From positions 1 through 38,020 of the forward strand of contig JAEUVR010000297.1 of the NCBI GenBank assembly GCA_016786785.1: a DNA stretch of 38,020 nucleotides. Direction: 5' to 3'. The notes below the pieces were generated by a model. It did no database searches, was not told the DNA's origin, and saw only the letters and a list, made by a program, of their open reading frames with translations. This stretch comes from Chitinophagaceae bacterium. GTDB lineage: Bacteria > Bacteroidota > Bacteroidia > Chitinophagales > Chitinophagaceae. The translations under genes were made by a program, and so were the position numbers. Of the stretch, positions 3,066 through 32,446 are shown piece after piece (the first letter of the stretch is position 1; each line of letters opens with the position of its first letter).

Positions 3066-3587
3066 TCACGTTATGGCAGCCGGCGTTCCATCCTTTATAC
3101 CGCCGCCATGAGCGCCGGGAACATAGTAGATATAACGTTGTGTCACAGGATCGAGATCCATAGAAGTAACATAATCTTGTGAAGCTACCATTCCCCGGCC
3201 AACTGTTTTAATTCTCTCATTCCTGACGTCAAAAGTCCACTACGCTGGCGGGAATGGTATGCTTTGGCTTCGGCAGGAGCGCAGCGATTTTCATTCTACC
3301 GGTTTCAGGATTGACGCGGTAAATATTGTCGTCCTTATTGCCGCGGGCGTCCTGGCTATCTCAACGCCTTCTTCCAATTGAACATTTGCAGGTTTAATTA
3401 AAAACGCCGGCGACATATCAGTGGCAACCTCTTTCCCGTTGGCGAGCCTGGGAGGCCATGCGAGAGAAGCCAACTCCTTTTCGCGCGATGTATCCTCTTT
3501 GATACTGGGAACTATTGCCTGCGTCTTTTTAAAAATTTCCGGCCGGGCTGAAACGGATACCGCGATAAATAAAAATACCGCCAGCAT
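3066..3587 (-). pseudogene. Secreted protein remnant, frameshifted and internally deleted
   Basis: A good signal peptide (MLAVFLFIAVSVSA) starts a frame that runs to the residues LEEGVEIART and then loses sense, ending at 3291. A second frame continues with DDNIYRVNPETGRMKIAA to about 3236. A third frame then gives FDVRNERIKTVGRG, YVTSMDLDPVTQRYIYYVPG and AHGGGIKDGTP before a stop at 3066. The last piece looks like the closing blades of a secreted beta-propeller-type protein. Three consecutive coding pieces in three frames, far shorter than a full propeller, indicate a gene that has suffered deletions and frameshifts. The exact family is uncertain. An assembly error could explain a frameshift but not the missing body. 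Confidence 0.65.
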
Positions 3588-3767
3588 TTTAATTTTTGAA
3601 ACTGGCGTGATCCTGCATCTATAGCTCAATGGTTCATGGGTTTTAATGATCCGAAATTAACCAGATGCGCCCCAGCCATATCGTACTTTAATACATTTTA
3701 TCTATACTATTTTTCAGAAATCCATTGATCGGTTCATGCAAAGCCTATTTTAAGTATCATCGCTCTA

Positions 3768-6700
3768 CTATTCCAATACCAGCGGCAATTCTGTTTGCTT
3801 GCCGCTGATGGTTTCCCTGACAACGATCTTCCATTTTCCTTTGGGATCATTCAACGCGGTATTAAAACGATAACTTCCCTTATTGTTTATGATCATCGCA
3901 TTATCGCTGTACACGTCTACTTTTTCGCCGGCAGGGTTATATACATAAATATTGGCGACAGATTTCAACCGCAAGGACTCCCCTCCTTCCACGCTGAACC
4001 GGATATCCACGGCGCCGCCTCTTTTTATAGCAGGCGCAGCTTTCGCGCTCATGCCCTTTATGACATCAGGCAGCAACGCATAAATGCCGGGAACCAGCGG
4101 CTCAACGCTTACCTGGAATTTTTCGCCCCGGCCGATATACCGGCTATTCCGGATATCATATAAATGCCCGGCGCTTTTGAAATGAATGTTTATCTCCTGC
4201 GCTGCCGCCTGTTTATCGGGCAATACGCCCAGAATAATAGCGCTGGAAGCGCCATTAGCATTACCGTTCCCTCCAACCGGACGATCAGCATGGATATCCT
4301 TCTTATCGGTACGACCGGCATTTGCATCCTCAGAAAAAGCATATTTCGAAATGCCCGAAACCGGCTTGCCGTTCTGCCCGGTGAAATAGATCCCCGGAAC
4401 GATGCCTGCTTTTTCAAATACCTTTTTTATTTTGGCCAGCGAGGCTTCCTGCGTATGGGTCCGTTTTTCCTCGGGATAATGATCAAGAAAATAATTAAGC
4501 ATAAAGGCTTTTCCCTTTCCATAGCTATGATAGATCAACTGGGGAGCGCCCTGCTTTTCTGATAACGCCGTTGCCCCTTTCAATGTTAATTCGCTATCGT
4601 TGCGAGGCGTTACCAGATCATTCCGGGAATGCGATTGCGCCGCTATGCCCCATACATCCGCCAACGCCTGTTCGGTACGGAAGCGCGCATGGCCATCCAT
4701 AACGCCTGCGAGCGCATCGGTAATTACAATCCCGCCATGCTCAACAAACGCCCTTATCTGCGCTGCTTCCTTATCGCTCAGGGCCATGCTCATCGGGAGT
4801 ATCAATGTTTTAATACCCTTACTGATCAGGTCGCCGTTCTCAATACCGCTATAAGCGATAAAATCAAAACCTAACCCCGCATCTTTCAATATCTTCACCC
4901 ATCCGTCAAGGTTTTTTCTTAGCTGGCCAAGCGTCTCGCTGGAATTGCCATAATTGCGGCCGGCTTTGATAACGCCGTCAACGATCCAGGCGGCATGGAT
5001 GCTCGGATAAGAATAATGAATGGCGATCTTATGCTCGTTTTCAGGTTGAAAGGAGGCAAATAATTTTCCAATCCCCTTTTCGCGCATCTCATAAAAGCCG
5101 TTCTTCATGTCCAGCCCGCTCGCGCAATAGGAGAGATCGGGATTCAAAGAAGACTGCTGCCAGAAGATATAGGCGCCGCCGGTTTCATTCAGGAATATAT
5201 GCTCATAAAAATCATGCAATACTTTTTTGCCCGAAGCGCCATACCCCGCCTGTCCCGAGACCTTCAGGTCGGGATTAAAATCATGATGGTATTCCAGTTG
5301 ATTGCCTATATCATAAGGGTTCATCTGCCCTACATGTTTATCCAACTGGCTGTAATCATATCCATTGTGCGCGCCGGAAGCCTGCGTGCCGGAAAGTTGC
5401 ACCAGCCCCCCGGGATCTATCTCATGCAATACATCCTGCACATAACGGAACTGATCCGACCAGGTTTTCTCCATAAAAGACCGATGGTCGGCCCAGGAAG
5501 AGTAATTGCCTCTTTCCTGCGCTTCCCGGTAATCGTCGGGAACGACCTGCTCCCAGGAAGCAAACCCGGTTCCCCATTGCCTGTTCAGGTCCTGCAACGA
5601 GGGATAAATCCCGCGCAGCCATTCGCGCATAGCCTTCAATGTTATCTCTGAAAAATCGAGGTCAAGCGCATCGTCATATCTTGTTACCGAAGGTTCCTCA
5701 TAAATATAATAGGCAGAAGGCGAAAACTTACGCCAGGCGGGGATCATCTTATACATCTCCTCACGGACAGCGCGCAGGTAAACAGAATCGTTGAGACCAT
5801 ATTTTCGCGCCAATACCCTTTTGTCGCCTGTTTCCAGGTATTTTGCTTTTATGGAATCGTAATATTCCAGGTCGGGTCCGTTATCAGGCGATTCCACGCC
5901 GCTGATCCTGGTCTCCGCCTGCACCTTATAGTTGGCATGTTTGCTTTGCTCCATGGTATAGGCGGCCAAAGTAGTAACATGCATATTTTTCAACTGGGCG
6001 TCGATGGCGCTCCATGTGCCGGGAACCGGGTTGGGGCCAAAATGATACATGGTGACATCATAGTCGTCCCATTTTCTTGGCTGATGAAAAAAGATCTCTT
6101 TCTTTTTACGGTCCTGCTGCCTGTTATTCGCCGAAAGGATAAATTCCACCCTGCCCAGATGCGACAGGATATTTTTAGAGTCCAGTATAAATTCGTATTT
6201 CCGGTCGCCTGAAAAATTAACAGGTTTAGACTGCGTGGATACCAGCCGGTCATAATTATCATAGAGAAAGGCGGAGAGCGTTCCGGCAAAAGGCTTTTCT
6301 GCGTTTACGAATACGCTTGTCTTGATGGCTTTTCCGGCCGGTATCTCGTCAAGTTCGCTGTCAACGGCCCTGATCTTCGCCTGTTGGGCTCTTGAGAATT
6401 TTAATGCATACCAGTCCAGCACGCCTTTGGCGTTTGTTAATTGCAGGGCGGCAAAATGTTCTCCGCCATGCACGGTCGCGGCCAAGGGAATTTTCACCGA
6501 TCCATTTTTACTGCTATTAAGCGGCATCGTATAAGATGTTTCCACTACCCCGAAATCATCCTGGATATTTATACGCAGCGAATCATTGTTGCCAATATTA
6601 TCAAAAAAAACTTCCAGCGCATTGGCGCTCGCCTCCGCCCGCGCAATATGAGAAGAGGGTTCCTTTTGAGCGGCCCAGACTACCGAGCGCGCCACCAGCG

Positions 6701-8048
6701 ACCACATGTGTTCCCAGAAGGGGTATGAAAGTCCTGTTTCCCAGGGATTTTTTAATTTGGGGATAAACCCGTTTTCCGGATAAGCCATCGCCACGATCCG
6801 GCCCTTGCCATAGGTTTTTACGGATACTACCGGGTTTCCATCAGCCGTACGGATCAGCGCCTGCCCGTTATCTGCGCAGGGAACAACGCCCATCTGCCCC
6901 ATCGGAAGAGCTCCCAGCTCGACGCCGCGGGTGATATAATGATCGCCGGTTTTTACCCAGGCCGAAGTATCCATCAACGGCCATATATTGGCTTTTGAGT
7001 GATAAAGTTTCATAATGCTGTCGATGTTTACAGAAGGTTTTACCGCCAGCGGCGAAAAGGCTGTAAAATCATTCTCTCCGCCGGGTTTACTGGCAGGATA
7101 CAGCAACACCAATCCTGTTCCTTTTTTTACCCGCTCCAATAATGCCTGGCGTAATGCCCGGGGATAGTCTTCCCAGGGATGGAGCCCCGGCCAGATGATC
7201 ACATCATATTCGGGGTTGAACATAATATCATCCGCAATATAATTGAAGGCAAGGTTATAAGGATAGCTTCCATCGTGCGACATTGGATTCCGGCGATCAT
7301 AGAAATCGCCAAATCCCCAGCGGTTGATACCGGCAGAACGCCCGATCGTGGTAGTCGTAAAATCCAGCGCCAGCCGCTCGGATAATTCAATAATACCTCG
7401 GCCGTCAAATATTGGCGATATGCTGTACGCTTTTATTTTACCATTTGCAAAATTGGTTGCCCAGGGAAAATGCGGCGTTATGATCGCATCCGTATAATCC
7501 ACATCCCATCTCCCCTTGGCATCAAACACTTTCTGGTATTGGTCAAGCGCAATATAATCCAGGTACAGGGAAGCGCTATCCGCTGTTTTTAACAGGAGCG
7601 AGCTGACCTTTGCCATATCAAATCCCTTAAACGCTGCAAAGGCAACCTGCAGGTGATTGGCTCCCTGCCTGAGCGAAAATTGTTTTGCCGACTGGTTTCC
7701 CGCGGAATCTTCAACGACCAGCGATACCTGCGCCGGCCGCTCGCTCCATACAAACAACAACAACGCGTCGGCGCCGGATTTTTTTACGGCCGGATCTTCA
7801 TTCCAGTTAGATACATTCAACTCTACCAGCCTGAGCTCTCCTCCATTTGCAGGAAATATGCATTGAAGCGAATGTCTGTTTAACGCAGGAAAATCTGTTG
7901 ATTGCCGGGCCTGCACGCCCTTGCCCGCCTGCACGCTTTTCAACTCTTTATCCGTTTCAAAAGAATTGATAAGTTTTTGCGCAGCGGCATCCGCGTGAAA
8001 CAGGGCGAGCAATATGCCGCTAAATAAATAAGAAGATAAATGTTTCAT
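3768..8048 (-). CDS. Large secreted glycoside hydrolase-like protein (GH42-like)
   Basis: The protein is 1426 residues when started at MKHLSSYLFSGILLALF, which gives a clean signal peptide; an upstream in-frame ATG at 8138 would add 30 unlikely residues. In order there are a jelly-roll-like N-terminal domain (roughly 30-190), an alpha/beta domain like the class I glutamine-amidotransferase or ThuA fold (roughly 215-450, with the segment YDVIIWPGLHPWEDY), beta-sandwich linkers, a TIM barrel (about 650-1000) and a second alpha/beta domain like the beta-galactosidase trimerisation domain, with ITDALAGVMDG. Candidate acidic residues are in YYIYEEPSVT and in LNETGGAYIFW; I did not prove their roles. 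Beta-rich segments end the protein. It follows the GMC and small-subunit genes on the same strand with a 134-bp gap, so cotranscription is plausible. The substrate is unknown. Confidence 0.75.
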   Translation of the reverse strand: MKHLSSYLFSGILLALFHADAAAQKLINSFETDKELKSVQAGKGVQARQSTDFPALNRHSLQCIFPANGGELRLVELNVSNWNEDPAVKKSGADALLLFVWSERPAQVSLVVEDSAGNQSAKQFSLRQGANHLQVAFAAFKGFDMAKVSSLLLKTADSASLYLDYIALDQYQKVFDAKGRWDVDYTDAIITPHFPWATNFANGKIKAYSISPIFDGRGIIELSERLALDFTTTTIGRSAGINRWGFGDFYDRRNPMSHDGSYPYNLAFNYIADDIMFNPEYDVIIWPGLHPWEDYPRALRQALLERVKKGTGLVLLYPASKPGGENDFTAFSPLAVKPSVNIDSIMKLYHSKANIWPLMDTSAWVKTGDHYITRGVELGALPMGQMGVVPCADNGQALIRTADGNPVVSVKTYGKGRIVAMAYPENGFIPKLKNPWETGLSYPFWEHMWSLVARSVVWAAQKEPSSHIARAEASANALEVFFDNIGNNDSLRINIQDDFGVVETSYTMPLNSSKNGSVKIPLAATVHGGEHFAALQLTNAKGVLDWYALKFSRAQQAKIRAVDSELDEIPAGKAIKTSVFVNAEKPFAGTLSAFLYDNYDRLVSTQSKPVNFSGDRKYEFILDSKNILSHLGRVEFILSANNRQQDRKKKEIFFHQPRKWDDYDVTMYHFGPNPVPGTWSAIDAQLKNMHVTTLAAYTMEQSKHANYKVQAETRISGVESPDNGPDLEYYDSIKAKYLETGDKRVLARKYGLNDSVYLRAVREEMYKMIPAWRKFSPSAYYIYEEPSVTRYDDALDLDFSEITLKAMREWLRGIYPSLQDLNRQWGTGFASWEQVVPDDYREAQERGNYSSWADHRSFMEKTWSDQFRYVQDVLHEIDPGGLVQLSGTQASGAHNGYDYSQLDKHVGQMNPYDIGNQLEYHHDFNPDLKVSGQAGYGASGKKVLHDFYEHIFLNETGGAYIFWQQSSLNPDLSYCASGLDMKNGFYEMREKGIGKLFASFQPENEHKIAIHYSYPSIHAAWIVDGVIKAGRNYGNSSETLGQLRKNLDGWVKILKDAGLGFDFIAYSGIENGDLISKGIKTLILPMSMALSDKEAAQIRAFVEHGGIVITDALAGVMDGHARFRTEQALADVWGIAAQSHSRNDLVTPRNDSELTLKGATALSEKQGAPQLIYHSYGKGKAFMLNYFLDHYPEEKRTHTQEASLAKIKKVFEKAGIVPGIYFTGQNGKPVSGISKYAFSEDANAGRTDKKDIHADRPVGGNGNANGASSAIILGVLPDKQAAAQEINIHFKSAGHLYDIRNSRYIGRGEKFQVSVEPLVPGIYALLPDVIKGMSAKAAPAIKRGGAVDIRFSVEGGESLRLKSVANIYVYNPAGEKVDVYSDNAMIINNKGSYRFNTALNDPKGKWKIVVRETISGKQTELPLVLE

Positions 8049-8182
8049 GGCATCATTATTCAACCGGTTTATAGCCGGAAAAGATCTTTGTGTGTTCCTA
8101 TTAACAACCAGTAGGATGGTCAGAGGGATATGAAACAATAATTAATTATTGTGCAAGGCCCGATTAATGCTTGCTTCGGTCG

Positions 8183-8815
8183 CTAAAATGTTATGTCTTC
8201 CAATCCGTACGCTTTAATAATATCCGGCGGCACGCCCTCCCACCTGTTGGGCTTATTACCCGCATAGCCCAGGTCTTCAATACCCATCTTGCTGGTAAAA
8301 AAGCCGGTCGCCGTCAGGTTTCTCATCCGGTTAAAAAAAGCTACGCCCTGCTGCATTTCGGGTTTTGCCCTGGCAGGATAAGCAATTTCATTGACGATCT
8401 CCAATTGCTGCGTTGCAGTGCAATCTTTAAATGGCTGATCATACCTGTTCAGGCATTTCAGGTCTAACCAGCGCAGTCCTCCCCTCATCGGCAACTGGTG
8501 TTCGGGCATATCCTTCACAATAAATTCTATGAACTCGGGAACCTTCGCGGCGGAAGCGCTTCCCGAGCGCTCGTCTTTCGGAATGATAATATCCGCCAAG
8601 ATCGTTATGGTAGCCATCTCATGGGGCGTGAAAAAGGTTTCCGCCAGCAGTTTTTTATCCCTTTCTATCTCCTGCGCCTGCCTGTCGGAATAATCGCCTT
8701 CGGCTACATTAGTTACAGCAGTCTTTTCTCCCGGCTCAGGCTTGCAACTCTTGAGTAAGGCGCCGGCTGACAAGGCGCCAATGCCCAATGCTTTAATGGA
8801 ATCTCGTCTTTTCAT
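8183..8815 (-). CDS. Gluconate 2-dehydrogenase subunit 3-like Tat lipoprotein
   Basis: This 210-residue protein is the small partner of the GMC dehydrogenase just upstream. The N-terminus KRRDSIKALGIGALSAG is a twin-arginine type signal, followed by a lipobox (ALLKSC, cysteine 24), so it should be exported folded and lipid-anchored. The body matches the gluconate 2-dehydrogenase subunit 3 family: FFTPHEMATITILADIIIPKDE, then SASAAKVPEFIEFIV, then MRGGLRWLD. In characterised three-subunit dehydrogenases this subunit carries the export signal for the flavoprotein, which has none. The gene starts 59 bp after the GMC stop codon, consistent with an operon. Confidence 0.88.
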   Translation of the reverse strand: MKRRDSIKALGIGALSAGALLKSCKPEPGEKTAVTNVAEGDYSDRQAQEIERDKKLLAETFFTPHEMATITILADIIIPKDERSGSASAAKVPEFIEFIVKDMPEHQLPMRGGLRWLDLKCLNRYDQPFKDCTATQQLEIVNEIAYPARAKPEMQQGVAFFNRMRNLTATGFFTSKMGIEDLGYAGNKPNRWEGVPPDIIKAYGLEDITF

Positions 8816-8874
8816 ATATAATATTTTACCTGTGCGCTTTTATTTTTTATTGATAATAGTAATGCATACGCGCA

Positions 8875-10611
8875 TTAAATATTTTGCTTTTGCCTTTGTT
8901 CCAGGATATACTCTGCCGTTCGCATCGATAAGGCAAGGATCGTCCAGGTGGCATTTTTATCTGATTGCTGCACTGTCGGCGCGCCGTCCACCACGAAAAG
9001 ATTATTGCAGTCATGCGCCTGGCACCATTTATTCAATACGGACAATTTGGGATCATTCCCCATCCTGGTCGTGCCCACTTCATGGATGATCCTTCCGGGC
9101 GCTTCGAGTCCCCACATATCTTCCGGTCCATGCTTAGACAGAGATATTCCTCCCAGTTCATGGATGATCTTATCAAAGGTCTGCTGCATGTGTTTTGCCT
9201 GGTTGATCTCGTCATTATTCCATTTGTAATGAAAGCGCAGCACAGGAATGCCGTATCTGTCCACCACATTCGGATCGATCTCGCAATAATTATCGATCCT
9301 CGCCATGCCTACCCCGCGCCCGGCCATGCCGATCTGCGCGCCATAAAAACGGCGATAATCATCTTTCAGAGAGGCGCCGAATCCGCCCGCCTCCTTCATC
9401 TTTCCATCGCGGCCCGGTATCATGCCGTTTAAACGCGGAACCTCGCCGCCGAAGCCATAACCGGGCATACGCATGCCTCCGCCAAACTCAATGTGGTAAC
9501 CCCTGGGAAAATCAAGTTTTTTATTGTCTTCCATCCAGGGGCCGTAAACATTTAAACTTCCCGTGGCATCCTCATTGAACCGCTTGCGATCCAATAGCTG
9601 CGGAAGCACGGCAGATTGAGAGGCGCCGGTTGAATCCTGAAGGTATTTCCCGACCAGCCCGCTGCTGTTGGCCAATCCATTAGGATGAACGGTCGATTTT
9701 GAATTAAGCATGATCCGCGCCGACTCACAGGCGCTTGCCGCCAATATCACCATCTTACCCATCGCCTGGTATTCCAGCATATCGTCCTTGCTGACATAAG
9801 ATACGCCCACGGCCTGACCGTTTTTATCTGTCAATACTTCCCTGGCCATCGCATTGGAGATCAGTTCGAGGTTGCCCGTTTTTAATGCCGGGATCACCAG
9901 GCAGGAAGAGGAGGAAAAGTCGGCATACGCTTTACAAGCGCGGTTACATTGCCCGCAATAAAAACAAGCACCCCTGTCCTTATTTCCGGGCAAGGCCTGC
10001 GTTAATACGGAGCCTCTGCCGGGAATGACTTTTACGCCTGCCTTTTTTGCGCCCTTGATAATAAACAATTCCGGTAGCCGCGGTTTAGGCGGCGGCAGGA
10101 AAATACCGTCCGGATCATTTTCCAGGCCTTCCACGGTGCCATAGATGCCCAGTAAACGATCGATCTTATCATAAAAGGGTTTTACCTCATCGTAAGTAAT
10201 AGGCCATCTTTCACTAATGCCGTCGTCCGGCTGAAAATCCTTAGGCCCCAGCCTTAGCGAGATCCGGCCCCAGTGATTGGTTCTTCCTCCAAGCATGCGC
10301 GACCGGAACCAGTCAAATTCCGTATTGTCTTTTTTGGTATATGGTTCTCCTTCCAGCTCCCAGCCTCCGAATGCCGCGTCGAAATCGCCGAAAGACCTGG
10401 CTTTGGTATTGGCGCCCCTGCGGGGAGATTCATAAGAAAACTTTAGTTGCGAGGAATGTTTTGCAGGATCATAAAACGGGCCGGCTTCCAGCATCAATAC
10501 TTTCAAACCGGCATGCGCCAGCACATAAGCAGCCATTCCTCCTCCCGCGCCGGAACCCACAATAACCGCGTCATATTGTTTTGGCGATTTCTTGATTTGT
10601 AACTCTCCCAT
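8875..10611 (-). CDS. GMC-family FAD sugar/alcohol dehydrogenase, large subunit
   Basis: This 578-residue flavoprotein has the FAD-binding Rossmann motif GSGAGGG at residues 19-25, an acidic strand end (VLMLEAG) and the C-terminal GMC signature with HEVGTTRMG and NLFVVDGA. The cysteines C216, C219, C222 and C226 form the spacing CX5CX3C plus one extra cysteine. This resembles the 3Fe-4S ligand pattern of bacterial FAD glucose dehydrogenase large subunits, so electrons probably pass to a cytochrome or quinone rather than to oxygen. There is no signal peptide; export would depend on the Tat-type small subunit at 8183-8815. Likely substrates are sugars, glycosides or sugar acids (including possible C3 oxidation), but the sequence does not say which. 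Confidence 0.88.
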   Translation of the reverse strand: MGELQIKKSPKQYDAVIVGSGAGGGMAAYVLAHAGLKVLMLEAGPFYDPAKHSSQLKFSYESPRRGANTKARSFGDFDAAFGGWELEGEPYTKKDNTEFDWFRSRMLGGRTNHWGRISLRLGPKDFQPDDGISERWPITYDEVKPFYDKIDRLLGIYGTVEGLENDPDGIFLPPPKPRLPELFIIKGAKKAGVKVIPGRGSVLTQALPGNKDRGACFYCGQCNRACKAYADFSSSSCLVIPALKTGNLELISNAMAREVLTDKNGQAVGVSYVSKDDMLEYQAMGKMVILAASACESARIMLNSKSTVHPNGLANSSGLVGKYLQDSTGASQSAVLPQLLDRKRFNEDATGSLNVYGPWMEDNKKLDFPRGYHIEFGGGMRMPGYGFGGEVPRLNGMIPGRDGKMKEAGGFGASLKDDYRRFYGAQIGMAGRGVGMARIDNYCEIDPNVVDRYGIPVLRFHYKWNNDEINQAKHMQQTFDKIIHELGGISLSKHGPEDMWGLEAPGRIIHEVGTTRMGNDPKLSVLNKWCQAHDCNNLFVVDGAPTVQQSDKNATWTILALSMRTAEYILEQRQKQNI

Positions 10612-10612
10612 A

Positions 10613-10688
10613 AATCAATCGATAATTTATTGAATAATACATGACAGGTTTTCCTTATCCCGGTATGCGAGCCTGAATCAATCGATAA
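10613..10688. repeat. 13-bp direct repeat pair in a divergent control region
   Basis: The 13 bases AATCAATCGATAA occur twice, at 10613-10625 and 10676-10688, with start points 63 bp apart. The first copy begins one base upstream of the GMC start codon and the second lies about 65 bp further upstream. Both include the palindrome ATCGAT. They sit in the 276-bp region between the minus-strand GMC gene and the plus-strand cytochrome-containing gene, so a pair of regulator-binding sites is a reasonable guess. No regulator gene is nearby to support it. Confidence 0.45.
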
Positions 10689-10887
10689 GTATAGATTAAT
10701 GCCCGGCATCCCCGGATTATTTACAAATATTATGGATTTCAATCAGGATATCCATTGAATTATTTATTTTTTAATAAAAACGCCGGCTTTCATTTTCTTT
10801 AAGCGGCGGCAATATTGAAAGCGCAAACCGCTAACTTTATAGAAATGATCATATCGTTCACTGCCCCTAAATACTGGAATAATACCA

Positions 10888-13800
10888 ATGATTGCTTCTA
10901 TGAGAAAAACAGTTAGCGCGTTGCTGGCCCTGTTTTCATTAACAGCTACGCTTTTTATCGGCTGCCAGCCCGCTCAAAACAACGCGTTGCCGGTACAAAA
11001 AGGATCCCGCATCTTTTTAATTGGCAATAACCTTGGGTCCAGGATGATGAACTATGGGCATTTCGAGACAGAAATGCAGCTGCGTTATCCGGACAGCATG
11101 CTGTATATACGCAATATGTGCGACGGCGGAAATACGCCGGGATTCAGGCCGCATGCAGCCAGGAACACGCCCTGGGCCTTTCCCGGAGCAGAGCAGTTCC
11201 AGACCGAACTGGCGACCCCTTCGCAAAGCGAAGGAAATTTTGAGTCGCCGGACGAATGGCTATCGCGGCACAAGGCGGATATCATTATTGCTTTCTTTGG
11301 CTTCAACGAGTCTTTCCAGGGAAAGGAAGGACTGGACAACTACAAGGCCGAACTGGAGGCTTTTATCGACCATACCTTGAACCAGCGGTATAACGGGATC
11401 GCGCCCCCGCAGCTGGCCATCGTATCGCCTATTGCCTTTGAAGACCTGTCAGGCCGCTACGATCTGCCGAATGGAAAAAAAGAAAATGCCAACCTGCTGA
11501 TGTATGCCGAGGCAATGCAGGAGATCGCGCATAAACATAAACTCGTTTTTGCCGATGCCTATCATCCTTCCCTGCAATGGTTTACCGGCGCCAAAGAACC
11601 GCTCACCATCGACGGCTCGCAACTGAATGAAGAAGGATATAAAAAACTTGCGGTTTTGCTGGCAGATGAACTATTCGGAAAGAAAGCCCCCAAAGCAGAA
11701 GCCAACAGGGAGCTCGTGTTGCAAGCAGTGAAAGAAAAAAACTGGGCCTGGCACAATGATTTTAAGATCCCCAATGGCGTGCATGTTTACGGACGCCGTT
11801 ACAAACCTTTCGGGCCCGACAATTACCCGGCCGAAATTGAAAAGATACGCCAGATGACCGCCATCAGGGACACCGCTATCTGGCTGGCGGTAAAAGGCAA
11901 AAAAATGGACCTTAACGAAGCAGACAAACATACCCGGCCCCTGCCCGAAATAAAAACGAATTTTAATCCAAAGGAAAACGGCAGCCTGAAATATTTATCC
12001 GGACAGGAAGCGCTGCGCCAATTCAAACTTGCGCCCGGTTACAAGATCGAGCTTTTTGCATCCGAACAGGAATTCCCCGACCTGGCCAAACCCATGCAGA
12101 TGTCTTTCGACAATAAGGGGCGGCTTTGGGTGGCCGCTATGCCCAGCTACCCCCACTATAGGCCCGGCGACCCCAAACCCAACGACAAGATCCTGATCCT
12201 GGAAGATACCGACGGCGATGGAAAGGCAGACAAACAAACCATATTCGCAGACAGCCTGCACCTGCCCCTGGGTTTTGAGATCGCTCCTGAAGGCGTATAT
12301 GTATCGCAGGGAACCAATTTTAAACTATATGTCGATACCGATGGAGATGATAAGGCGGATAAAAATGAGATTTTACTGAGCGGGTTTGACGATCATGATA
12401 CGCACCATAATATTCATGCTTTTACGGTAGATCCTTCCGGCGCGATTTATATGGGCGAGGGCGTGTTCCTGCACACCAATGTAGAAACTTCTTACGGGCC
12501 GGTGCGCGCCACCAATGGCGGCTTTTACCGGTATGCGCCGCAACAGCGGCGGCTTGAACGCACCGCCCAGCTTTCCATCCCTAATCCCTGGGGTATTGCC
12601 TTTGACGACTGGGGACAGCCTTTCTTTGCCGAAACTTCCAGTCCGGATGTTCGCTGGATGCTGCCCGGCACGGTATTGCCCAGGTATGGAGAAGCCACGC
12701 ATAAATCATTCGACCTAGTCGAAAAAGCCCATCGGGTCAGGCCTACATCCGGGCTGGAATTTGTTTCGAGCCGGCATTTCCCCGACGAGGCGCAGGGCGA
12801 TTTCCTGATCAACAATACCATCGGTTTTCTGGGCACAAAAGAACATACGCTAACAGATAGCGGAACAGGGTACGGCAGCAAACACCGGTTAGACCTCGTC
12901 GTTAGCGCCGACCGTAATTTCAGGCCGGTAGATATGGAGTTTGCTCCCGACGGCTCTCTTTACGTGATCGACTGGCACAATATCCTGATAGGGCATATGC
13001 AACACAATGCCAGGGATCCGCTGCGCGATCATTCGCATGGCAGGGTCTATCGCATCACTTATCCTTCCCGACCATTGGTGAAACCGGCCAGGATAGACGG
13101 CGCCAGTATCGAGGAATTATTAGATAACCTTAAGCTTCCCGAATACCGTACGCGTTACCGTACGCGCCGGGAACTAAGGGGAAGAGAAGCCTCGCAGGTC
13201 CTGCCTAAAATGAAAACATGGGTAGATAACCTCGATAAAAATGATAGCCGGTATGAACACCATTTGCTGGAAGCGCTTTGGGTGAGCTGGGGGCTGAACA
13301 AAATAGATCAATCCCTGCTGCGCCGGGTATTGCAATCGAAAGATTACCGGGCAAGGGCAGCTGCAGTACAGGTAGTTCGCTATGGCGGCGCCCAACTCCC
13401 CGACCAGGAGGCATTGCTAATGAAAGCCGCCGCAGACGATCATGGAAGAGTGCGCCTGGCGGCGATCGTGGCCGCCTCCTGGCTAGGAAAGGAAAAAGGA
13501 GCGCCTATTTTAGCGGAAGCCGCCAGGAAACCCCTCGACGAATGGATGATCCACGCGTATGAAGCGTCAGTAGCGCACCTGAACGGTCTGCCGGTCAAGG
13601 CGGAAAAAGAGGATAAGCCCTTAACTTCCTTAAAAGGAAACGACCTGGCGCTTTTTATACAGGGAAAACAGATCTATGAGAAGGAAGGATATTGTATTAC
13701 CTGCCACCAGCCAGACGGAATGGGTCTTGCCGCTTCAGGATTTCCGCCGCTTGCCGGCACAAAATGGGCCATAGGAAATGAAGAACGCCTGATCAAGATC

Positions 13801-14055
13801 GTATTGAACGGATTGCTTGGCCCGATTGAAATAAACGACGTAAAATATCCCGGACAGGCGCCGATGACGCCGTTCAAAGGATTGCTGACAGACCAGGAAG
13901 TAGCCGCCGTACTGACGTATATCAGAAATGCTTTTGGAAACCAGGCCTCTCCCGTGCTTCCCGATAAAGTGAAACAGGTAAGAGCCGCTACAAAAAACAA
14001 AACAGATTTTTATTTGCCTGCTGAATTGCTGAAAGAGCATCCCCTGGAGAAATAG
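10888..14055 (+). CDS. Multidomain SGNH / propeller dehydrogenase / cytochrome c lipoprotein
   Basis: This 1055-residue exported protein fuses four parts. A lipoprotein signal ends in LFIGC (cysteine 26 from the first ATG, cysteine 22 if the second ATG at 10900 is used, which gives the better signal). A SGNH/GDSL-like hydrolase domain follows (about 40-265; GNNLGSR, FFGFNESF and DGSQLNEEGY). Next is a membrane-bound dehydrogenase-type beta-propeller (about 370-720) containing DTDGDGKADK and DTDGDDKADK, which resemble calcium-binding loops. HEAT-like repeats (about 740-910) lead to a monohaem cytochrome c domain with CITCH at 936-940 and a probable methionine ligand at M993. This architecture is known mainly from Planctomycetes and Verrucomicrobia and also occurs in Bacteroidota. 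Its position opposite the GMC genes makes a role in electron acceptance possible. Confidence 0.85.
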   Translation: MIASMRKTVSALLALFSLTATLFIGCQPAQNNALPVQKGSRIFLIGNNLGSRMMNYGHFETEMQLRYPDSMLYIRNMCDGGNTPGFRPHAARNTPWAFPGAEQFQTELATPSQSEGNFESPDEWLSRHKADIIIAFFGFNESFQGKEGLDNYKAELEAFIDHTLNQRYNGIAPPQLAIVSPIAFEDLSGRYDLPNGKKENANLLMYAEAMQEIAHKHKLVFADAYHPSLQWFTGAKEPLTIDGSQLNEEGYKKLAVLLADELFGKKAPKAEANRELVLQAVKEKNWAWHNDFKIPNGVHVYGRRYKPFGPDNYPAEIEKIRQMTAIRDTAIWLAVKGKKMDLNEADKHTRPLPEIKTNFNPKENGSLKYLSGQEALRQFKLAPGYKIELFASEQEFPDLAKPMQMSFDNKGRLWVAAMPSYPHYRPGDPKPNDKILILEDTDGDGKADKQTIFADSLHLPLGFEIAPEGVYVSQGTNFKLYVDTDGDDKADKNEILLSGFDDHDTHHNIHAFTVDPSGAIYMGEGVFLHTNVETSYGPVRATNGGFYRYAPQQRRLERTAQLSIPNPWGIAFDDWGQPFFAETSSPDVRWMLPGTVLPRYGEATHKSFDLVEKAHRVRPTSGLEFVSSRHFPDEAQGDFLINNTIGFLGTKEHTLTDSGTGYGSKHRLDLVVSADRNFRPVDMEFAPDGSLYVIDWHNILIGHMQHNARDPLRDHSHGRVYRITYPSRPLVKPARIDGASIEELLDNLKLPEYRTRYRTRRELRGREASQVLPKMKTWVDNLDKNDSRYEHHLLEALWVSWGLNKIDQSLLRRVLQSKDYRARAAAVQVVRYGGAQLPDQEALLMKAAADDHGRVRLAAIVAASWLGKEKGAPILAEAARKPLDEWMIHAYEASVAHLNGLPVKAEKEDKPLTSLKGNDLALFIQGKQIYEKEGYCITCHQPDGMGLAASGFPPLAGTKWAIGNEERLIKIVLNGLLGPIEINDVKYPGQAPMTPFKGLLTDQEVAAVLTYIRNAFGNQASPVLPDKVKQVRAATKNKTDFYLPAELLKEHPLEK

Positions 14056-14093
14056 AGTCCCCCCGAAATATCCCACGCAAAGGCTTTTTGCTG

Positions 14094-15110
14094 TTATTTC
14101 AACTTAAAATCCGAAGGGTAAACGCCTTTTTTTGACTGGCCAAAACCAAACATCGTCGGGTTATACGGGGAGATAAATCCAACATCGGCTCTTTCGGGTA
14201 TTTGCGCTTCCAGGTTAACCGCCCACAAGCAGGCGTTGACAAGCAGTCTGCGCAAATCCTCGTTCAACAGATCAATGGATGCGCCCATAGTGGTGGCAAA
14301 TACCCTTGCTTTTTTACCGGCTTCATTGGCATATGTCCTGGTCCAGGCTACCGGTATGATTGATTTGTCGAGGTTTACTGCAGATTGAGGATCGAGGGCG
14401 CGGGTCGATTGACCATATACCAGCGTTTCAGCGTCTGCCGGCAATTTTCTTATCGTGTACACATCTGAATAACACCATATGTCTTTTACGCCTTTTAAAA
14501 TAGGATTGCCTGCATTTTGCGCGATGCCGTCTATCAATCCACGCGTACCTTCAACGCCGTGTTTTCCATGATGATCTACCCAGGTCTCGCCTAAGACCCG
14601 TTTTCCGAAACCGCCCTCCCATCCTTTTACGGAGCTAACGAAATCATATTTCGCATAGGGGCTGTTTTTGTTTCTTTTGTAATTAAATGCATGCGTAGAA
14701 GTACGCAAAGCGACTACCGGCTTCCCGGAAGCGAGGTACTGATCAATGTATTTCATCTGCTCATCGGGCAGCTCCCTGAAGCGCGTAAAAATGACCATCA
14801 GGTCTGCCGACGCAAGGCTTTTCAGGCCGGGAATATTGGTTTGGCAGTCTCCATCGATGGCGCCGGTTTTCGGGTCAATGGCAAACAGTACCGTGCAGTC
14901 GAACCCATATCTGGCAGACAGTATCTGCGCAAGCATCGGCAAGGCCTCTTCCGACCGGTATTCTTCGTCGCCGCTGATCCATACAATATGTTTCCCCTTC
15001 CCCGGGCCCTTTCCGCCTTTATAAAACGCCCATTGGTCTTGCGCAAATGCTACTGGAGCCAGCAATACCGAGACCCACAAAAAAAGGAATGACAAGAAAT
15101 GTTTTCTCAT
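14094..15110 (-). CDS. ThuA-like secreted protein
   Basis: The 338-residue protein starts best at MRKHFLSFLFLWVSVLL, giving a clear signal peptide; an in-frame ATG at 15143 adds 11 residues before it. After the signal comes a ThuA (trehalose-utilisation) domain of the glutamine-amidotransferase-like fold: HIVWISGDEEYRSEEALPML, then LASADLMVIFTRFRELPDEQ and the region VVALRTSTHAFNY. ThuA proteins act on 3-keto sugars or related sugar derivatives in the best-studied systems, but many secreted homologues are uncharacterised. It lies 72 bp downstream of the PfkB kinase gene on the same strand and so may be in an operon with it. Its stop is 38 bp from the end of the convergent cytochrome-containing gene. 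Confidence 0.82.
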   Translation of the reverse strand: MRKHFLSFLFLWVSVLLAPVAFAQDQWAFYKGGKGPGKGKHIVWISGDEEYRSEEALPMLAQILSARYGFDCTVLFAIDPKTGAIDGDCQTNIPGLKSLASADLMVIFTRFRELPDEQMKYIDQYLASGKPVVALRTSTHAFNYKRNKNSPYAKYDFVSSVKGWEGGFGKRVLGETWVDHHGKHGVEGTRGLIDGIAQNAGNPILKGVKDIWCYSDVYTIRKLPADAETLVYGQSTRALDPQSAVNLDKSIIPVAWTRTYANEAGKKARVFATTMGASIDLLNEDLRRLLVNACLWAVNLEAQIPERADVGFISPYNPTMFGFGQSKKGVYPSDFKLK

Positions 15111-15182
15111 GGCAGCTACGTTATTTTTAATGAAGCGGCTCATAAACAGACCCAGGCACGAAGCGCGCTTGTACCAGGGAAG

Positions 15183-16094
15183 TTAATGAATTGTTTTAAC
15201 CTGCGCTTTTTTGTTCAGCGCCTGAACGTCCGACAACCTGAGCATACCCAGTTCCTCATAGATACAATTCGCAGCGCCGCAGGCTACCGCCAGCCTGGCC
15301 ATTTCTTCTATTGAATATTGCTGTGAAATAGCTACGGCCAAACCGGCGGTCAGGCAATCCCCGCTGCCAACAGTACTGATCACATGGTCTACCCGCACAG
15401 CGGCATGAATAAGCTGATCGCGGTGGGCGAGGTATAAGCCGTCGGCGCCATTGGTCACCGCGGCATAAGCGCAATGTTCTTTTAACTTAACGGCTATCTG
15501 CGCAGGATCGTCAATATCAAAAAGGGCTTTCCCCTCATGAATATTGATGTGCACGCAATAGGGGTTGCGTTGCAACGCTTTTTCCAAGGCTATTCCCGAG
15601 CAGTCTATGATGGTTTTTTTATTCTTAGAAAAGCCGAGCAGGCGAAAATACGTGTCGGAAGAAAAGCCCGGAGGAACGGAACCGCTCATGCATACTACTT
15701 CGTAACGGTCAATCGAAGCGCTGTATTCTTCTACGAACGCCTGGTATTCCCGCTCGCTGGTATGCGGCCCCGCGCCGGTTATCTCTGTTTCATTAATATG
15801 CGGATCTTCCGACTTAAACGTATAACAGCTACGGGTCCATCCACTAACCGTAGGTCCATAACAGGCCACGTTACGGGTTTTGCATTCTTCTTTAATCCAT
15901 GCGCCTGAAGGACCGCCCCAGACGCCTAAAAGATCGGCCTGACCGGCGATTTCCGCAACCGCCATGGCCACATGCACTCCTTTTCCTCCCGGATAATGAA
16001 GTTCTTTTTTGAACCGGTTGACCGATTTCAAACGAAAATGATCAATCTCAGCCAGAATATCTATCGACGGATTAGGACAAACTGCAAGTATCAT
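15183..16094 (-). CDS. PfkB-family hexose kinase (1-phosphofructokinase-like)
   Basis: This 303-residue cytoplasmic kinase belongs to the ribokinase/PfkB family, in the 1-phosphofructokinase and tagatose-6-phosphate kinase branch. Visible signatures are the start VCPNPSIDI, the substrate-binding glycines in HYPGGKGVHVAMA and the catalytic loop STVGSGDCLTAG with the base D246. The second position of the usual GAGD loop is serine here, which occurs in some members. It would phosphorylate a sugar or sugar phosphate using ATP. It precedes the ThuA gene with a 72-bp gap and follows a terminator at 16216-16252, so a transcription unit probably starts here. The exact sugar cannot be decided from sequence. 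Confidence 0.83.
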   Translation of the reverse strand: MILAVCPNPSIDILAEIDHFRLKSVNRFKKELHYPGGKGVHVAMAVAEIAGQADLLGVWGGPSGAWIKEECKTRNVACYGPTVSGWTRSCYTFKSEDPHINETEITGAGPHTSEREYQAFVEEYSASIDRYEVVCMSGSVPPGFSSDTYFRLLGFSKNKKTIIDCSGIALEKALQRNPYCVHINIHEGKALFDIDDPAQIAVKLKEHCAYAAVTNGADGLYLAHRDQLIHAAVRVDHVISTVGSGDCLTAGLAVAISQQYSIEEMARLAVACGAANCIYEELGMLRLSDVQALNKKAQVKTIH

Positions 16095-25434: not shown

Positions 25435-26364
25435 TCAGCTATATCTTTTTCTTAACAGGCGCATCATATGCGTATTAATGGCCCATTGGTCGGACAAAGG
25501 CTGCCGGGTATAGGGCAGGGCAGGCATATAATCAGGAGGACCGAACTCCGTTAGGATCGTTAGTTGTTCTCCTTTTTCTTTTTTTCTTTGTACAATCTTA
25601 TCCCACCAATCAAAATGCGCTTTCACTGCGGCGGCCCATTCGGGCGCCCTGGGATCATTCACCTGGGGGCCCTCGGGATGACCTATACGCGCATGGATAT
25701 GCTCGGACCGGGACAATGCCATGTTTACTGTTTCCTGCTGATCCTCCAGTAAGGACTCATGTACATTACACCAATGAGAGATGTCAAGGGTAAGTTTGAG
25801 AGAAGGATTTTTTTCTATAAAACGGCGGGTGATATGCGCGGCAAACATGATCCTTGACCGATGCGTTTCATGGCAAACCAATATGCCTGTTTTCTCCGCC
25901 AGCTGTTTGGTATGGTCTATGAACGCCTGGCTCTGCTCTTCTGTAAAATGATCCCTTCCGGAATGGCAGTTGATATAAAGAGGGCGCTGACTGGTATTGT
26001 TTGCGGCGAAATCGGTCATTTTTTTAAAATAGTCTAAGTGCTGGGCGTAGTCAGCCTGGCCGCCGCCGCATAAAAAACCCACTTGTAACTGATGTTTCTT
26101 AAGGGCGGCAAACAGCTCTTTCTGTTTGCCGGCATCCATTGGCCACCAGTATTCTATTCCGTCATACCCTTCTTTTTTAGCGGCTGCGCAAAATTCGTCG
26201 ATCGTTCCGGGAAAACCCCAGGACGTTGCAAGGATGATCAGTTTATAATTATTATTCATACCTGTTTTCGGCTTATTCAGTAAAGAAAACCCATCCAACG
26301 TTGAAAGGAATAAACCAGTTGAAGCGCTGGCGCTTACGCCAAGGAAATTTCGTCTATTCAACAT
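25435..26364 (-). CDS. Tat-exported sugar phosphate isomerase/epimerase-like protein
   Basis: The 309-residue product begins MLNRRNFLGVSASASTG, a good twin-arginine signal, then shows the xylose-isomerase-like TIM barrel. Metal-ligand candidates are in VCHETHRSR, LTLDISHWCN, HIHARIGHPEGP and ILTEFGPPDY, the pattern of one divalent metal bound by Glu, Asp, His and Glu. Such enzymes isomerise or epimerise sugars, and some family members act as lyases on 3-keto glycosides. A folded, exported location is unusual for isomerases of sugar phosphates, so a keto-sugar role outside the cytoplasm is worth considering, but this is inference. The structured repeats begin just past its stop codon. Confidence 0.82.
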   Translation of the reverse strand: MLNRRNFLGVSASASTGLFLSTLDGFSLLNKPKTGMNNNYKLIILATSWGFPGTIDEFCAAAKKEGYDGIEYWWPMDAGKQKELFAALKKHQLQVGFLCGGGQADYAQHLDYFKKMTDFAANNTSQRPLYINCHSGRDHFTEEQSQAFIDHTKQLAEKTGILVCHETHRSRIMFAAHITRRFIEKNPSLKLTLDISHWCNVHESLLEDQQETVNMALSRSEHIHARIGHPEGPQVNDPRAPEWAAAVKAHFDWWDKIVQRKKEKGEQLTILTEFGPPDYMPALPYTRQPLSDQWAINTHMMRLLRKRYS

Positions 26365-30193: not shown

Positions 30194-31891
30194 TTATATA
30201 TTACCTTTCTTCATTTCATCAATGGCATAATTGGCGGCGCGGGCGGTCATGGCCATATAGGTTAGCGACGGATTCTGGGTTGAGGTAGAAGTCATGCAGG
30301 CCCCATCGGTCACAAATACATTCTTACAAGCATGCATCTGGCTCCATTTGTTCAGTACGGATGTCTTCGGGTCCTTACCCATCCTGACGCCGCCCATTTC
30401 ATGAATATCCAGGCCGGGAGCCGATTTGTTATCGCTGGTTTTAATGTTTTTAAACCCTATCCTATCATACATTTCGGATACCTGCTCATAAAAATCCTGG
30501 ATCATTTTTTCGTCATTATCGTCATATTGGATATTTATAGAGAGCTGAGGTATTCCCCATTGGTCTTTTTTATTCTTATCTAAGGAAACGGTATTCGTCT
30601 CTTTAGGGATGGTCTCTCCCATAAAATTATTCCCTACCGACCAAATACCCAGTTCTTTAGAGGCAAGATTGGTCTTTAACTGCTCTCCAAAAGTATTCGT
30701 GTCGTGGTCTACCCCCCTGCCTGAACCAAATACCGAAGCATATCCCCTCAGAAAATCCGTTTGTTGTTTATACACGTTACGGAAACGGGGCATGTAGGCG
30801 GCAGTGGGGCTTCTACCGATGCTATGTGAATCGAGGAAACCTTCAAAAGTGGCGGACACACGCGCGCGATAATTATGAAACGCGACATATTTACCTAATA
30901 CGCCGCTATCATTGCCCAGCCCATTGGGAAAACGATGGGAAGTGGAATTCAGCAAAACGAGGTTAGAGTTTAACGAACCGGCGTTTAGGAATATCACTTT
31001 TGCATAGTACTCGATCATTTCCTTGGTGTTCGTATCGACCACCCTTACTCCTATAGCCCTGCCTTTATTTTCGTCATAAATGATGGAGTGCGCCACAGAA
31101 AACGGGCGCAAAGTAGCGTTGCCGGTTTTCAAAGCCCAGGGGATGGTAGAAGAAACGCTGGAGTAATATCCGCCAAACGGGCAGCCTCTCTGGCAAAGCG
31201 TTCTGCCCTGGCATTTTGCCCTGCCCTGCGCTAAATGAATAGGTTGGGGCTCGGTAAGATGCGCGCATCTCGCATAGACGACATGCCGGTCGTTATAATT
31301 TTTAGTAATGAAATCCTTGAAATGCGTTTCCACGCAATCCAGTTCGAGGGGGGGCAGGAACTCGCCGTCGGGAAGGGTATCTACGCCATCCTTATTACCT
31401 GAGACGCCTATAAACTTCTCTACATGGCTGTACCAGGGCGCTATATCCTTATAACGGATAGGCCAGTCAACCGCAAAACCGTCGCGGGCCGGACCTTCAA
31501 AATCAAAATCGCTCCAACGCTGCGTCTGGCGCGCCCATAACAAAGACCTTCCGCCCACCTGGTATGCCCTGATCCAGTCGAATGGTTTTTCCTGCACATA
31601 AGGATGGTCGGTATCCCTTGCAAAAAAATGCATGGCGTCTTCCTTAAAAGCATAACAACGGCTGACTATAGGGTTCGCCTCCTTGATTTCCTGGGGGATC
31701 TGTCCACGGTGCTCAAATTCCCATGGGTACATATTCATCGTAGGATAATCCTTGAGGTGTTTCACATCGCGGCCTCTTTCGAGGATCAGCGTTTTAAAGC
31801 CTTTTTCAGCAAACTCTTTAGCGGCCCATCCTCCGCTCATCCCGGAGCCAATGACGATTGCGTCAAAATTGCGGTTATTATTATCGCCCAT
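30194..31891 (-). CDS. GMC-family FAD dehydrogenase, large subunit (second copy)
   Basis: This 565-residue flavoprotein has the FAD-binding motif GSGMSGGWAAKEFAE near residue 16, and GRSLLWARQTQRWS and the C-terminal GMC signature IHEMGGVRMG with FVTDGACM and SLTYMAMTARAA. The cysteines C227, C233 and C237 in KCQGRTLCQRGCPFG form exactly CX5CX3C, the 3Fe-4S ligand spacing of bacterial FAD glucose dehydrogenase large subunits. It lacks a signal peptide and would be exported with its Tat-type partner, whose gene ends 12 bp before its start. Sequence divergence from the copy at 8875 is considerable, so the substrates need not be the same. Confidence 0.88.
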   Translation of the reverse strand: MGDNNNRNFDAIVIGSGMSGGWAAKEFAEKGFKTLILERGRDVKHLKDYPTMNMYPWEFEHRGQIPQEIKEANPIVSRCYAFKEDAMHFFARDTDHPYVQEKPFDWIRAYQVGGRSLLWARQTQRWSDFDFEGPARDGFAVDWPIRYKDIAPWYSHVEKFIGVSGNKDGVDTLPDGEFLPPLELDCVETHFKDFITKNYNDRHVVYARCAHLTEPQPIHLAQGRAKCQGRTLCQRGCPFGGYYSSVSSTIPWALKTGNATLRPFSVAHSIIYDENKGRAIGVRVVDTNTKEMIEYYAKVIFLNAGSLNSNLVLLNSTSHRFPNGLGNDSGVLGKYVAFHNYRARVSATFEGFLDSHSIGRSPTAAYMPRFRNVYKQQTDFLRGYASVFGSGRGVDHDTNTFGEQLKTNLASKELGIWSVGNNFMGETIPKETNTVSLDKNKKDQWGIPQLSINIQYDDNDEKMIQDFYEQVSEMYDRIGFKNIKTSDNKSAPGLDIHEMGGVRMGKDPKTSVLNKWSQMHACKNVFVTDGACMTSTSTQNPSLTYMAMTARAANYAIDEMKKGNI

Positions 31892-31903
31892 AATATTGAA
31901 TAA

Positions 31904-32446
31904 TTAAGAAACCTGTTTAGTAACCGGAACGCACCCCTTATAAGGAACCGGTATCATTTCATAAACCGACACTTTGGTAAGATAGAACTCGGAAGTGGTA
32001 TATGCCTGTATGGTCAGTCTTTTGGTAGTTTTATAAAAATAGCTGAGATCGTCTTTTTTGTCCTTCTGGGCCTCAATCTCGGTCAATACCGCAGCCCGCT
32101 CCTTCGCGGCGCTGTTGACGAAAGATTTTCCCGTCTTGTTTTTAGCTTCCTTCTCAAACTGTTCAAGCCCTTTCATAAATTTCTGCTGATCCTCCTTTGC
32201 ATAACAATCATCCATCATCTTCAACACAAATAGATGCGCGGAAATATCCTTGGCGCCCGGGGTATCTGTTGCCGGTATGATGGTTTCCGCAAGTTCCGCC
32301 AGCAATTGTTCCTGGTTGCCGCTGACCTGCAGATTTTTAAGAATTATGGAAGCCTTGCTTTTATCCTGCATACAGGAAGGAATCAGGGAAACCCCGGCAG
32401 TGATAATCGCCAACTGTTTTAAGGCTTGCCGCCTATTCAAATGCAT
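31904..32446 (-). CDS. Gluconate 2-dehydrogenase subunit 3-like Tat lipoprotein (second copy)
   Basis: This 180-residue protein starts MHLNRRQALKQLAIITAG, a twin-arginine signal, followed by the lipobox LIPSC with the lipidated cysteine at residue 25. The body LLAELAETIIPATDTPGAKD matches the subunit 3 family, and lysine-rich helices fill its middle. It should escort the adjacent GMC subunit across the membrane. Here the small-subunit gene precedes the GMC gene, while in the other module it follows it. The gap to the GMC gene is 12 bp, strong support for cotranscription. Confidence 0.85.
   Translation of the reverse strand: MHLNRRQALKQLAIITAGVSLIPSCMQDKSKASIILKNLQVSGNQEQLLAELAETIIPATDTPGAKDISAHLFVLKMMDDCYAKEDQQKFMKGLEQFEKEAKNKTGKSFVNSAAKERAAVLTEIEAQKDKKDDLSYFYKTTKRLTIQAYTTSEFYLTKVSVYEMIPVPYKGCVPVTKQVS

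Follow-up and report, generated by a model that had tools for sequence, protein, structure and literature searches.

The LacABC lactose (glucoside) 3-dehydrogenase of Caulobacter and its relatives combines LacA, a flavoprotein of the GMC family, with LacC, a Gluconate_2-dh3 protein that is exported by the twin-arginine translocation (Tat) system and encoded next to it. In flavin adenine dinucleotide (FAD) glucose dehydrogenase (FAD-GDH) and fructose dehydrogenase (FDH), the solved complexes of which (6a2u, 7w2j) include a cytochrome subunit, a set of cysteines binds an Fe-S cluster, and the fungal AA12 enzymes, which use pyrroloquinoline quinone (PQQ), fuse a propeller to a haem domain. A joint role of LacABC and DUF1080 in lactose use is described in PMC9007349. 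Lac161_ORF7 of Verrucomicrobia combines TIGR02604, HEAT_2 and cytochrome c domains and is reported in PMC5342196 to be a beta-galactosidase that hydrolyses lactose. We compared these systems with the window, by which we mean the whole stretch of DNA analysed (38,020 bases), the complete contig C53 of a Chitinophagaceae genome (G000; 464 contigs, 4.5 Mb). An initial annotation had suggested there a possible periplasmic island that would carry sugars from oxidation to cleavage. Gene coordinates and domain scans put its genes where it had placed them, but they do not make up one conserved pathway, and whether genes are grouped above chance depends on which pair is asked about. The conserved heart of the neighbourhood is a little-studied pair consisting of a ThuA-like protein and an SGNH-like/DUF7133/HEAT_2/cytochrome c protein (the haem c protein), not a full 3-keto-sugar pathway. 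Next to it lies a GMC dehydrogenase with its small subunit, and we read the neighbourhood as two independent exported sugar-oxidation modules side by side, a reading that we consider about as likely as not.

Among 395 sampled Bacteroidota genomes the ThuA-like protein was found in 40, all of which are among the 43 that have a homologue of the haem c protein at E up to 1e-40. The SGNH/DUF7133 architecture, for which genomes were sorted by E-value and match range, was present in 38 (G344 only in pieces and G382 fragmentary), 36 of which also have ThuA (Fisher p about 4e-44, uncorrected for kinship). The four ThuA genomes without this architecture belong to one family (f71) and encode, at a distance of about 4-5 kb, DUF7133 proteins with a different domain composition. 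ThuA and SGNH/DUF7133 genes lie within 1 kb of one another in 16 places distributed over five families, the distances being taken from 42 ThuA places, a set that includes the window and excludes the second pieces of split matches and anything weaker than 1e-31. Of the 29 haem-type copies, 8 are within that distance of ThuA, as are 8 of the 34 remaining copies in the list, copy numbers that are lower bounds owing to the scoring of two candidates per genome. The ThuA-like protein and the haem c protein are therefore a second conserved pair, found across Bacteroidota.

The ThuA-like protein of the window is a divergent but genuine member of the ThuA family. By itself it gave no match to PF06283 at E values up to 5, and its identity was borne out by family alignment and structure modelling rather than by domain scanning. 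In the family alignment PF06283 was matched by 25 of 29 sequences at E<=0.1 (best 1.2e-16). The predicted structure, with a predicted local distance difference test score (pLDDT) of 93.9, had as its best match in the PDB the ThuA-like protein 4e5v (Z 18.6, root-mean-square deviation (rmsd) 3.5, 231 residues aligned) and also matched 1t0b (Z 17.9, rmsd 2.8, 202 aligned); GH42 domains and GATase-fold proteins are among its structural relatives. Searches of the PDB with phmmer gave no match for the ThuA-like protein or the GH123-like lipoprotein (GH123L) of the window at E up to 1, nor for its AP_endonuc_2 TIM barrel at E up to 0.01. We compared the neighbours of ThuA at 32 of the 41 places outside the window, counting two loci of G225 apart. 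Recurrent neighbours (counted in labels) were three AP_endonuc_2 clusters (C2 with 10, C4 with 6 and C8 with 4), sulfatase-like proteins recognized by eye (cluster C3, 6) and MFS permeases (cluster C7, 4), and the Pfam assignments were checked with one representative each of clusters C2, C4, C7 and C8. No homologue of the window GMC protein or of its small subunit was detected in these 32 loci at 1e-8. A PhyH gene of the window (32522-33478) has relatives of 64-66% identity near ThuA-like genes in three genomes (L175, L176, L182).

The partner of ThuA is a composite protein. Behind a lipoprotein-like leader it has a degenerate SGNH domain at about residues 36-260 (limits set by eye), DUF7133 at 373-725, HEAT_2 at 810-890 and a single CxxCH at 936 within a cytochrome c domain. 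It passes the TIGR02604 model (PVC-type haem-binding) with 235.9 bits against a curated cut-off of 122.2, and G000 has 16 DUF7133 matches, of which 14 are above the curated cut-off. The model of the DUF7133 region is a propeller, the best structural matches of which were fungal AA12 PQQ enzymes (6h7t, Z 23.8, rmsd 3.3, 298 aligned; 6jt5, Z 23.7), followed by sugar dehydrogenases (3a9g, Z 22.5; 1qbi, Z 21.7, rmsd 3.7, 302 aligned). In this predicted fold it resembles the AA12 and soluble PQQ sugar dehydrogenases, from which it differs in the weakness of the sequence link, in its additional SGNH and HEAT domains and in a carrier that may be copper. An invariant DTH precedes a conserved AF..D..G.IY.GEG in DUF7133 and by eye resembles the H-x-GG of GSDH domains, although hhalign left the two unaligned.

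The carrier domain is exchangeable. The SGNH/DUF7133 cluster comprises 19 proteins, of which 11 contain a single CxxCH and eight lack it. The latter might have been taken as a sign that the haem is dispensable and as an argument against a redox role, an interpretation overturned by the finding that all eight end in a cupredoxin-like domain with an upstream PHN followed by C-x4-H-x3-M; PF00127 matched each of the three that were scanned. That a type 1 copper domain takes the place of haem c in 8 of the 19 relatives compared indicates a dehydrogenase whose fused electron carrier can be exchanged. The SGNH domain follows the carrier. In all 11 haem-type proteins that have the domain, the window protein included, the catalytic Ser is replaced by Asn and the His by Gln or Ser, whereas the copper-type proteins retain the His in 8/8 and the Ser in 6/8. 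This loss of catalytic residues in the haem subtype suggests that the domain changed its job when the carrier changed. Moreover, G000 encodes on another contig (C40; L213:2027-5437) a 1136-aa ThuA-GSDH-PKD-cytochrome c fusion, and the same fusion is found in G031 (L045:14095-17568), one same-strand gene away from a GMC pair. Like the window pair, the fusions unite ThuA, a quinoprotein-type propeller and haem c; they differ in having clear PF06283 and PF07995 matches, whereas the window pair consists of two genes with divergent domains. Taken together, the carrier swap, the propeller fold and these fusions favour a redox enzyme.

The other module has the make-up of LacA and LacC. By domain content and adjacency the GMC protein and its small subunit appear to be a conserved pair of that kind. 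Orthologues of the GMC protein with >=62% identity over most of its length were found in 22 relatives when 59 genomes were searched, its own included, a count that leaves out one 60% identical fragment of the same clade in G051; viral contigs searched with the protein gave no relative. We compared 24 GMC loci of 6.7 to 20 kb each, two genomes having given two loci apiece. The small subunit adjoins the GMC gene in 23 of them, and in the 24th the contig ends within the GMC gene. At the N-terminus of the small subunit an RR motif, recognized by eye, precedes a lipobox-like cysteine, and no signal peptide of its own was seen in the GMC protein. The GMC catalytic pair is H510/N553, the corresponding pair of PsG3Ox being H440/N484 (PMC10646112), and the His and Asn are retained in all 28 aligned GMC proteins that reach that region, including four of the second clade. 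The best PDB sequence matches of the GMC protein are FAD-GDH and FDH (6a2u and 7w2j, 3.9e-34). A cysteine motif, C-x2-C-x2-C-x3-C in 25/25 proteins of the first clade and C-x5-C-x3-C in 4/4 of the second, is located where the FAD-GDH and FDH sequences carry their cysteines, the spacing in 6a2u being CC-x4-C-x3-C rather than that of the window protein. The place of this motif suggests a dehydrogenase that feeds an outside acceptor. Unlike LacABC, the window has no separate gene for a cytochrome c subunit and no DUF1080; the DUF7133/haem c gene is transcribed divergently next to the pair, and the fused haem c domain of that protein (10888-14055, opposite strand) is the only cytochrome c in the window GMC locus. 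A literature search that paired GMC proteins with glucoside 3-dehydrogenase gave no paper.

The neighbours of GMC pairs indicate what such pairs may do. Pfam families among 119 open reading frames (ORFs) near clade-A GMC pairs, the clade of the window pair, at 23 loci included GFO_IDH_MocA six times, AP_endonuc_2 four times, 3keto-disac_hyd three times and DUF7133 twice; 3 of 122 ORFs had been dropped for exceeding 1000 aa, as were control ORFs of that length. None of these four families was in the top 25 for 113 control ORFs, taken from 20 regions elsewhere in these genomes, a list that may miss families represented only once or twice. Three of the random control positions were shifted by hand, two of them for overlap with a GMC locus. 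PF06439 (3keto-disac_hyd) is found within 10 kb for at least 4 of the 15 clade-A pairs, against 0.47 expected (p about 0.0008), and for at least 11 of the 32 pairs of the other GMC clade, against 1.07 expected, with clade labels assigned by hand and expected values that ignore contig ends. Four G000 entries among the PF06439 places were added from the genome-wide scan. From the 51 PF13618 rows we left out three of G036 and G044 and took two split G003 pieces as one, and G011 and G012, which have both GMC clades in one neighbourhood, were counted under both. The proximity of PF06439 to GMC pairs agrees with the LacABC-DUF1080 link published in PMC9007349; some loci of the window pair's relatives hold DUF1080/PF06439, as is the case for LacABC. 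This enrichment for 3-keto-type genes makes it plausible that the GMC pair is a glycoside dehydrogenase in general. In the window contig, however, there is none of the genome's 19 matches to 3keto-disac_hyd, and no GFO/IDH protein was among the window ORFs scanned. Such genes are found elsewhere in G000, on contig C241 (L051), where a terminal 3keto-disac_hyd fragment, two AP_endonuc_2 genes, a GFO/IDH gene and a GMC gene with Gluconate_2-dh3 form a compact locus that is likely to be the genome's 3-keto route. The initial annotation had passed over the second GMC and Gluconate_2-dh3 pair of the window, at 30194-32446, members of whose clade are often near 3keto-disac_hyd genes elsewhere.

The features of the window are collected in Table 1.

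Table 1. Coordinates of the features discussed, in window positions.
Feature	Position	Strand	Remarks
GH42-like exported protein (GH42L), 1456 aa from TTG	3768..8138	-	
Gluconate_2-dh3 small subunit, 210 aa, LacC-like	8183..8815	-	RR signal then Cys, Tat lipoprotein-like
GMC-family FAD dehydrogenase, 578 aa, LacA-like catalytic subunit	8875..10611	-	PF05199/PF00732
SGNH-like/DUF7133/HEAT_2/cytochrome c protein (haem c protein), 1055 aa, lipoprotein-like	10888..14055	+	
Exported divergent ThuA-like protein, 349 aa	14094..15143	-	Tail to tail with haem c protein
PfkB-type hexose kinase	15183..16094	-	TIGR03168 209.4 bits, below cut-off 216.4; no export signal seen
GH123-like lipoprotein (GH123L), 776 aa	16271..18601	-	
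Exported AP_endonuc_2 TIM barrel, RR signal	25435..26364	-	AP_endonuc_2 E=9.4e-12
Second GMC (30194-31891) and Gluconate_2-dh3 (31904-32446), other GMC clade	30194..32446	-	

Gaps computed from the coordinates are 44 bp between GH42L and the small subunit, 59 bp between the small subunit and GMC, 276 bp between the divergent GMC and haem c genes, 38 bp between the convergent haem c and ThuA genes, 39 bp between ThuA and PfkB, and 176 bp between PfkB and GH123L. Nearly the entire window is collinear with the genome of a sister species, G003, at 73-97% protein identity per gene, with GH42L missing. A remnant ORF at 3291 has 57% identity to its G003 counterpart. Positions 3077-3600 of the minus strand hold fragments of an exported propeller-like ORF, which in G003 is whole (496 aa, L039:6473-7960) and in the window is apparently decaying; a 112-aa ORF at 3291-3629 is part of it.

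The remaining genes that had been assigned to the island (GH42L, PfkB, GH123L and the TIM barrel) are, on our reading, either bystanders or genes added locally. At the 23 GMC loci outside G003, tblastn at 1e-6 detected none of GH42L, ThuA, PfkB, GH123L or the TIM barrel; a DUF7133 protein of 25-27% identity was present at two of these loci (G001, G002) and a second-clade GMC at another two (G011, G012). The likely start of GH42L is Met31, the first residue common to its relatives. In place of the gene, G003 has some 490 bp of spacer containing an NTF2-like ORF of 157 aa, there was no match at 1e-10 in the 394 other sampled Bacteroidota genomes, and the four relatives found in Bacteroidota metagenome-assembled genomes (50-67% identity in the best segment) have no GMC gene within the 6.5-22.7 kb examined for each. 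Hence, a place for GH42L in an old dehydrogenase operon is not supported. The gene is probably a recent species-specific gain downstream of the GMC pair, the alternative being its loss in G003. The neighbours of the GH42L relatives in L086 and L088 are GFO/IDH-like by eye. An EamA transporter of the window (35652-36566) has a 61% identical relative (L086:4206-5123) one gene upstream of a GH42L relative; in the window itself a long distance separates EamA from GH42L. Near the usual place of the GH42 acid/base an invariant YEEPS is common to GH42L and three aligned relatives, and the nucleophile Glu was not located by eye; the protein may be a non-canonical GH42 member.

PfkB is retained beside ThuA in G003 and was not found in the 32 ThuA loci at 1e-8, and GH123L was retained in G003 only among the loci examined. 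The TIM barrel adjoins an AraD1/GguC protein (NF040903) in the window. Of its 22 matches elsewhere, the eight best were examined, and all belong to an identical four-gene cluster, in which one partner is a PSCyt1-DUF1549-DUF1553 protein (Pfam, one representative) and two further conserved partners are DUF1501- and DUF2231-like by eye; homologues of these partners were not recognized beside the window TIM barrel. A role as the 3-keto cleavage step is not supported for this protein, the family of which sits with other partners.

Given these assignments, we propose the following scheme. In module 1 (8183-10611), a LacA/LacC-type dehydrogenase, the small subunit would take the FAD enzyme with it through the Tat pathway, a hydride would pass from the sugar ring to the flavin, and a haem c acceptor would receive the electrons by way of the Fe-S-type cysteine motif. 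In module 2 (10888-15143) the DUF7133 propeller would be a quinoprotein-like carbohydrate dehydrogenase within a fused enzyme, its electrons passing to the C-terminal haem c of the same protein, and the exported ThuA-like protein would act on the product or the substrate. Observed here are the gene content, the conserved pairs, the folds as predicted, the exchange of carriers and the loss of the SGNH Ser and His in the haem type; propeller catalysis, the cofactors, the substrate, the way electrons flow and the reaction of ThuA are inferred. The modules may meet in the genus, with the DUF7133/haem c protein also accepting electrons from the GMC pair. There, DUF7133 lies within 5 kb of four of five clade-A GMC pairs (0.11 expected, matches weaker than about 1e-24 being omitted from these counts) in three arrangements, one of which is shared by G000 and G003. 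The DUF7133 proteins near clade-A pairs carry haem c in the window, in G001 and in G002, and in G000 two further GMC genes, on C80 and C398, are beside a DUF7133/haem c gene.

Several observations weigh against these proposals. Outside the genus DUF7133 was within 5 kb of 0/10 clade-A pairs, and it was within that distance of only 2/32 GMC pairs of the other clade; the arrangement common to G000 and G003 is one ancestral arrangement, not two. With DUF7133 near GMC pairs in the genus and hardly outside it, electron transfer from GMC to the DUF7133/haem c protein is reasonable as a genus-level proposal, not as a general rule. For 18 of the 29 haem-type copies there is no listed ThuA gene within 10 kb, and when the profile of the ThuA-like family was compared with PDB sequences the best match was to arsenate reductase with an E of 0.64, which is not meaningful. 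The propeller model is of middling quality (pLDDT 71, predicted template-modelling score 0.80) and is also matched by lactonases and by non-enzymes such as HHIP at Z 18-21; DUF7133 and GSDH domains are weakly similar in sequence (hhalign 35%, 19 columns), and the propeller fold alone demonstrates no function. Finally, there is the beta-galactosidase activity reported for Lac161_ORF7. In the literature covered, which leaves out most subscription journals, PMC5342196 was the sole paper judged to treat a DUF7133/TIGR02604 protein and gave the one functional claim found for such proteins; ThuA in connection with haem-binding proteins or with sorbosone or PQQ sugar dehydrogenases led to no other.

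That report is the basis of a rival explanation, in which the DUF7133/haem c protein is a lactose-cleaving glycoside hydrolase of the Lac161_ORF7 kind, its haem or copper domain serves for docking or regulation and ThuA is an accessory hydrolase. The TIGR02604, HEAT_2 and Cytochrom_C architecture of the window protein is that of Lac161_ORF7, for which PMC5342196 gives a Km of 1.8 mM for lactose, and the structural resemblance of ThuA to GH42 domains and GATase-fold proteins would suit such a role. We consider it quite improbable: a plain hydrolase would hardly be expected to exchange haem c for type 1 copper, the predicted fold of DUF7133 is that of quinoprotein dehydrogenases, and the hydrolase assignment comes from one report. 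The window protein also differs from Lac161_ORF7 in its fused SGNH-like domain and ThuA partner. A chance neighbourhood of unrelated sugar genes in a carbohydrate-rich genome, with the ThuA/haem c pair as the sole functional unit, is a further explanation to which we give little weight. Such genes are indeed common in G000, as seen from its 3keto-disac_hyd and DUF7133 matches, and among the relatives examined only one is collinear with the contig; yet DUF7133/haem c genes are near GMC genes in three separate places of G000 (C53, C80 and C398) and, in other arrangements, near the clade-A pairs of G001 and G002.

The single pathway put forward by the initial annotation, a periplasmic 3-keto-glycoside route in which GMC oxidizes C3, ThuA and the glycoside hydrolase or TIM barrel cleave and PfkB salvages the product, is also unlikely, although it draws on real features. 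LacA/LacC-type subunits are present, the neighbours of GMC pairs of both clades are enriched for 3-keto-type genes relative to expectation and to the control list, and LacABC and DUF1080 are joint actors in lactose use according to PMC9007349. Against it are the lack of 3keto-disac_hyd in the window and of GFO/IDH among the ORFs scanned, the lack of conservation of GH42L, PfkB, GH123L and the TIM barrel beside the GMC pair and the other partners of the TIM barrel family. A search for the whole gene set as a conserved neighbourhood found no co-occurrence beyond G003, which speaks against the set as a unit; co-occurrence holds for the GMC/small subunit and ThuA/haem c pairs and fails for the other four genes. 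What survives of that proposal is its theme of exported sugar oxidation, which is probably right, together with the LacA/LacC-kind pair, the true linkage of ThuA and the haem c protein, and an exported TIM barrel that is real at 25435 without being a member of an island.

Two exported oxidation modules thus remain our preferred reading of the neighbourhood. We extend it, tentatively and with rather less confidence, to the proposal that DUF7133 propellers are exported quinoprotein-like carbohydrate dehydrogenases with a plug-in haem c or type 1 copper carrier and a ThuA partner, which would give Bacteroidota a means of opening glycans oxidatively that is independent of GMC and GFO/IDH enzymes. 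DUF7133/TIGR02604 proteins are abundant, as the 16 matches in G000 show. The ThuA partner, the predicted match to the fold of PQQ sugar dehydrogenases and the haem-for-copper swap provide a testable function for DUF7133 and for exported ThuA-like proteins. If the proposal is true, oxidative glycan breakdown in Bacteroidota would gain a second enzymatic entry besides the LacA-type flavoenzymes.

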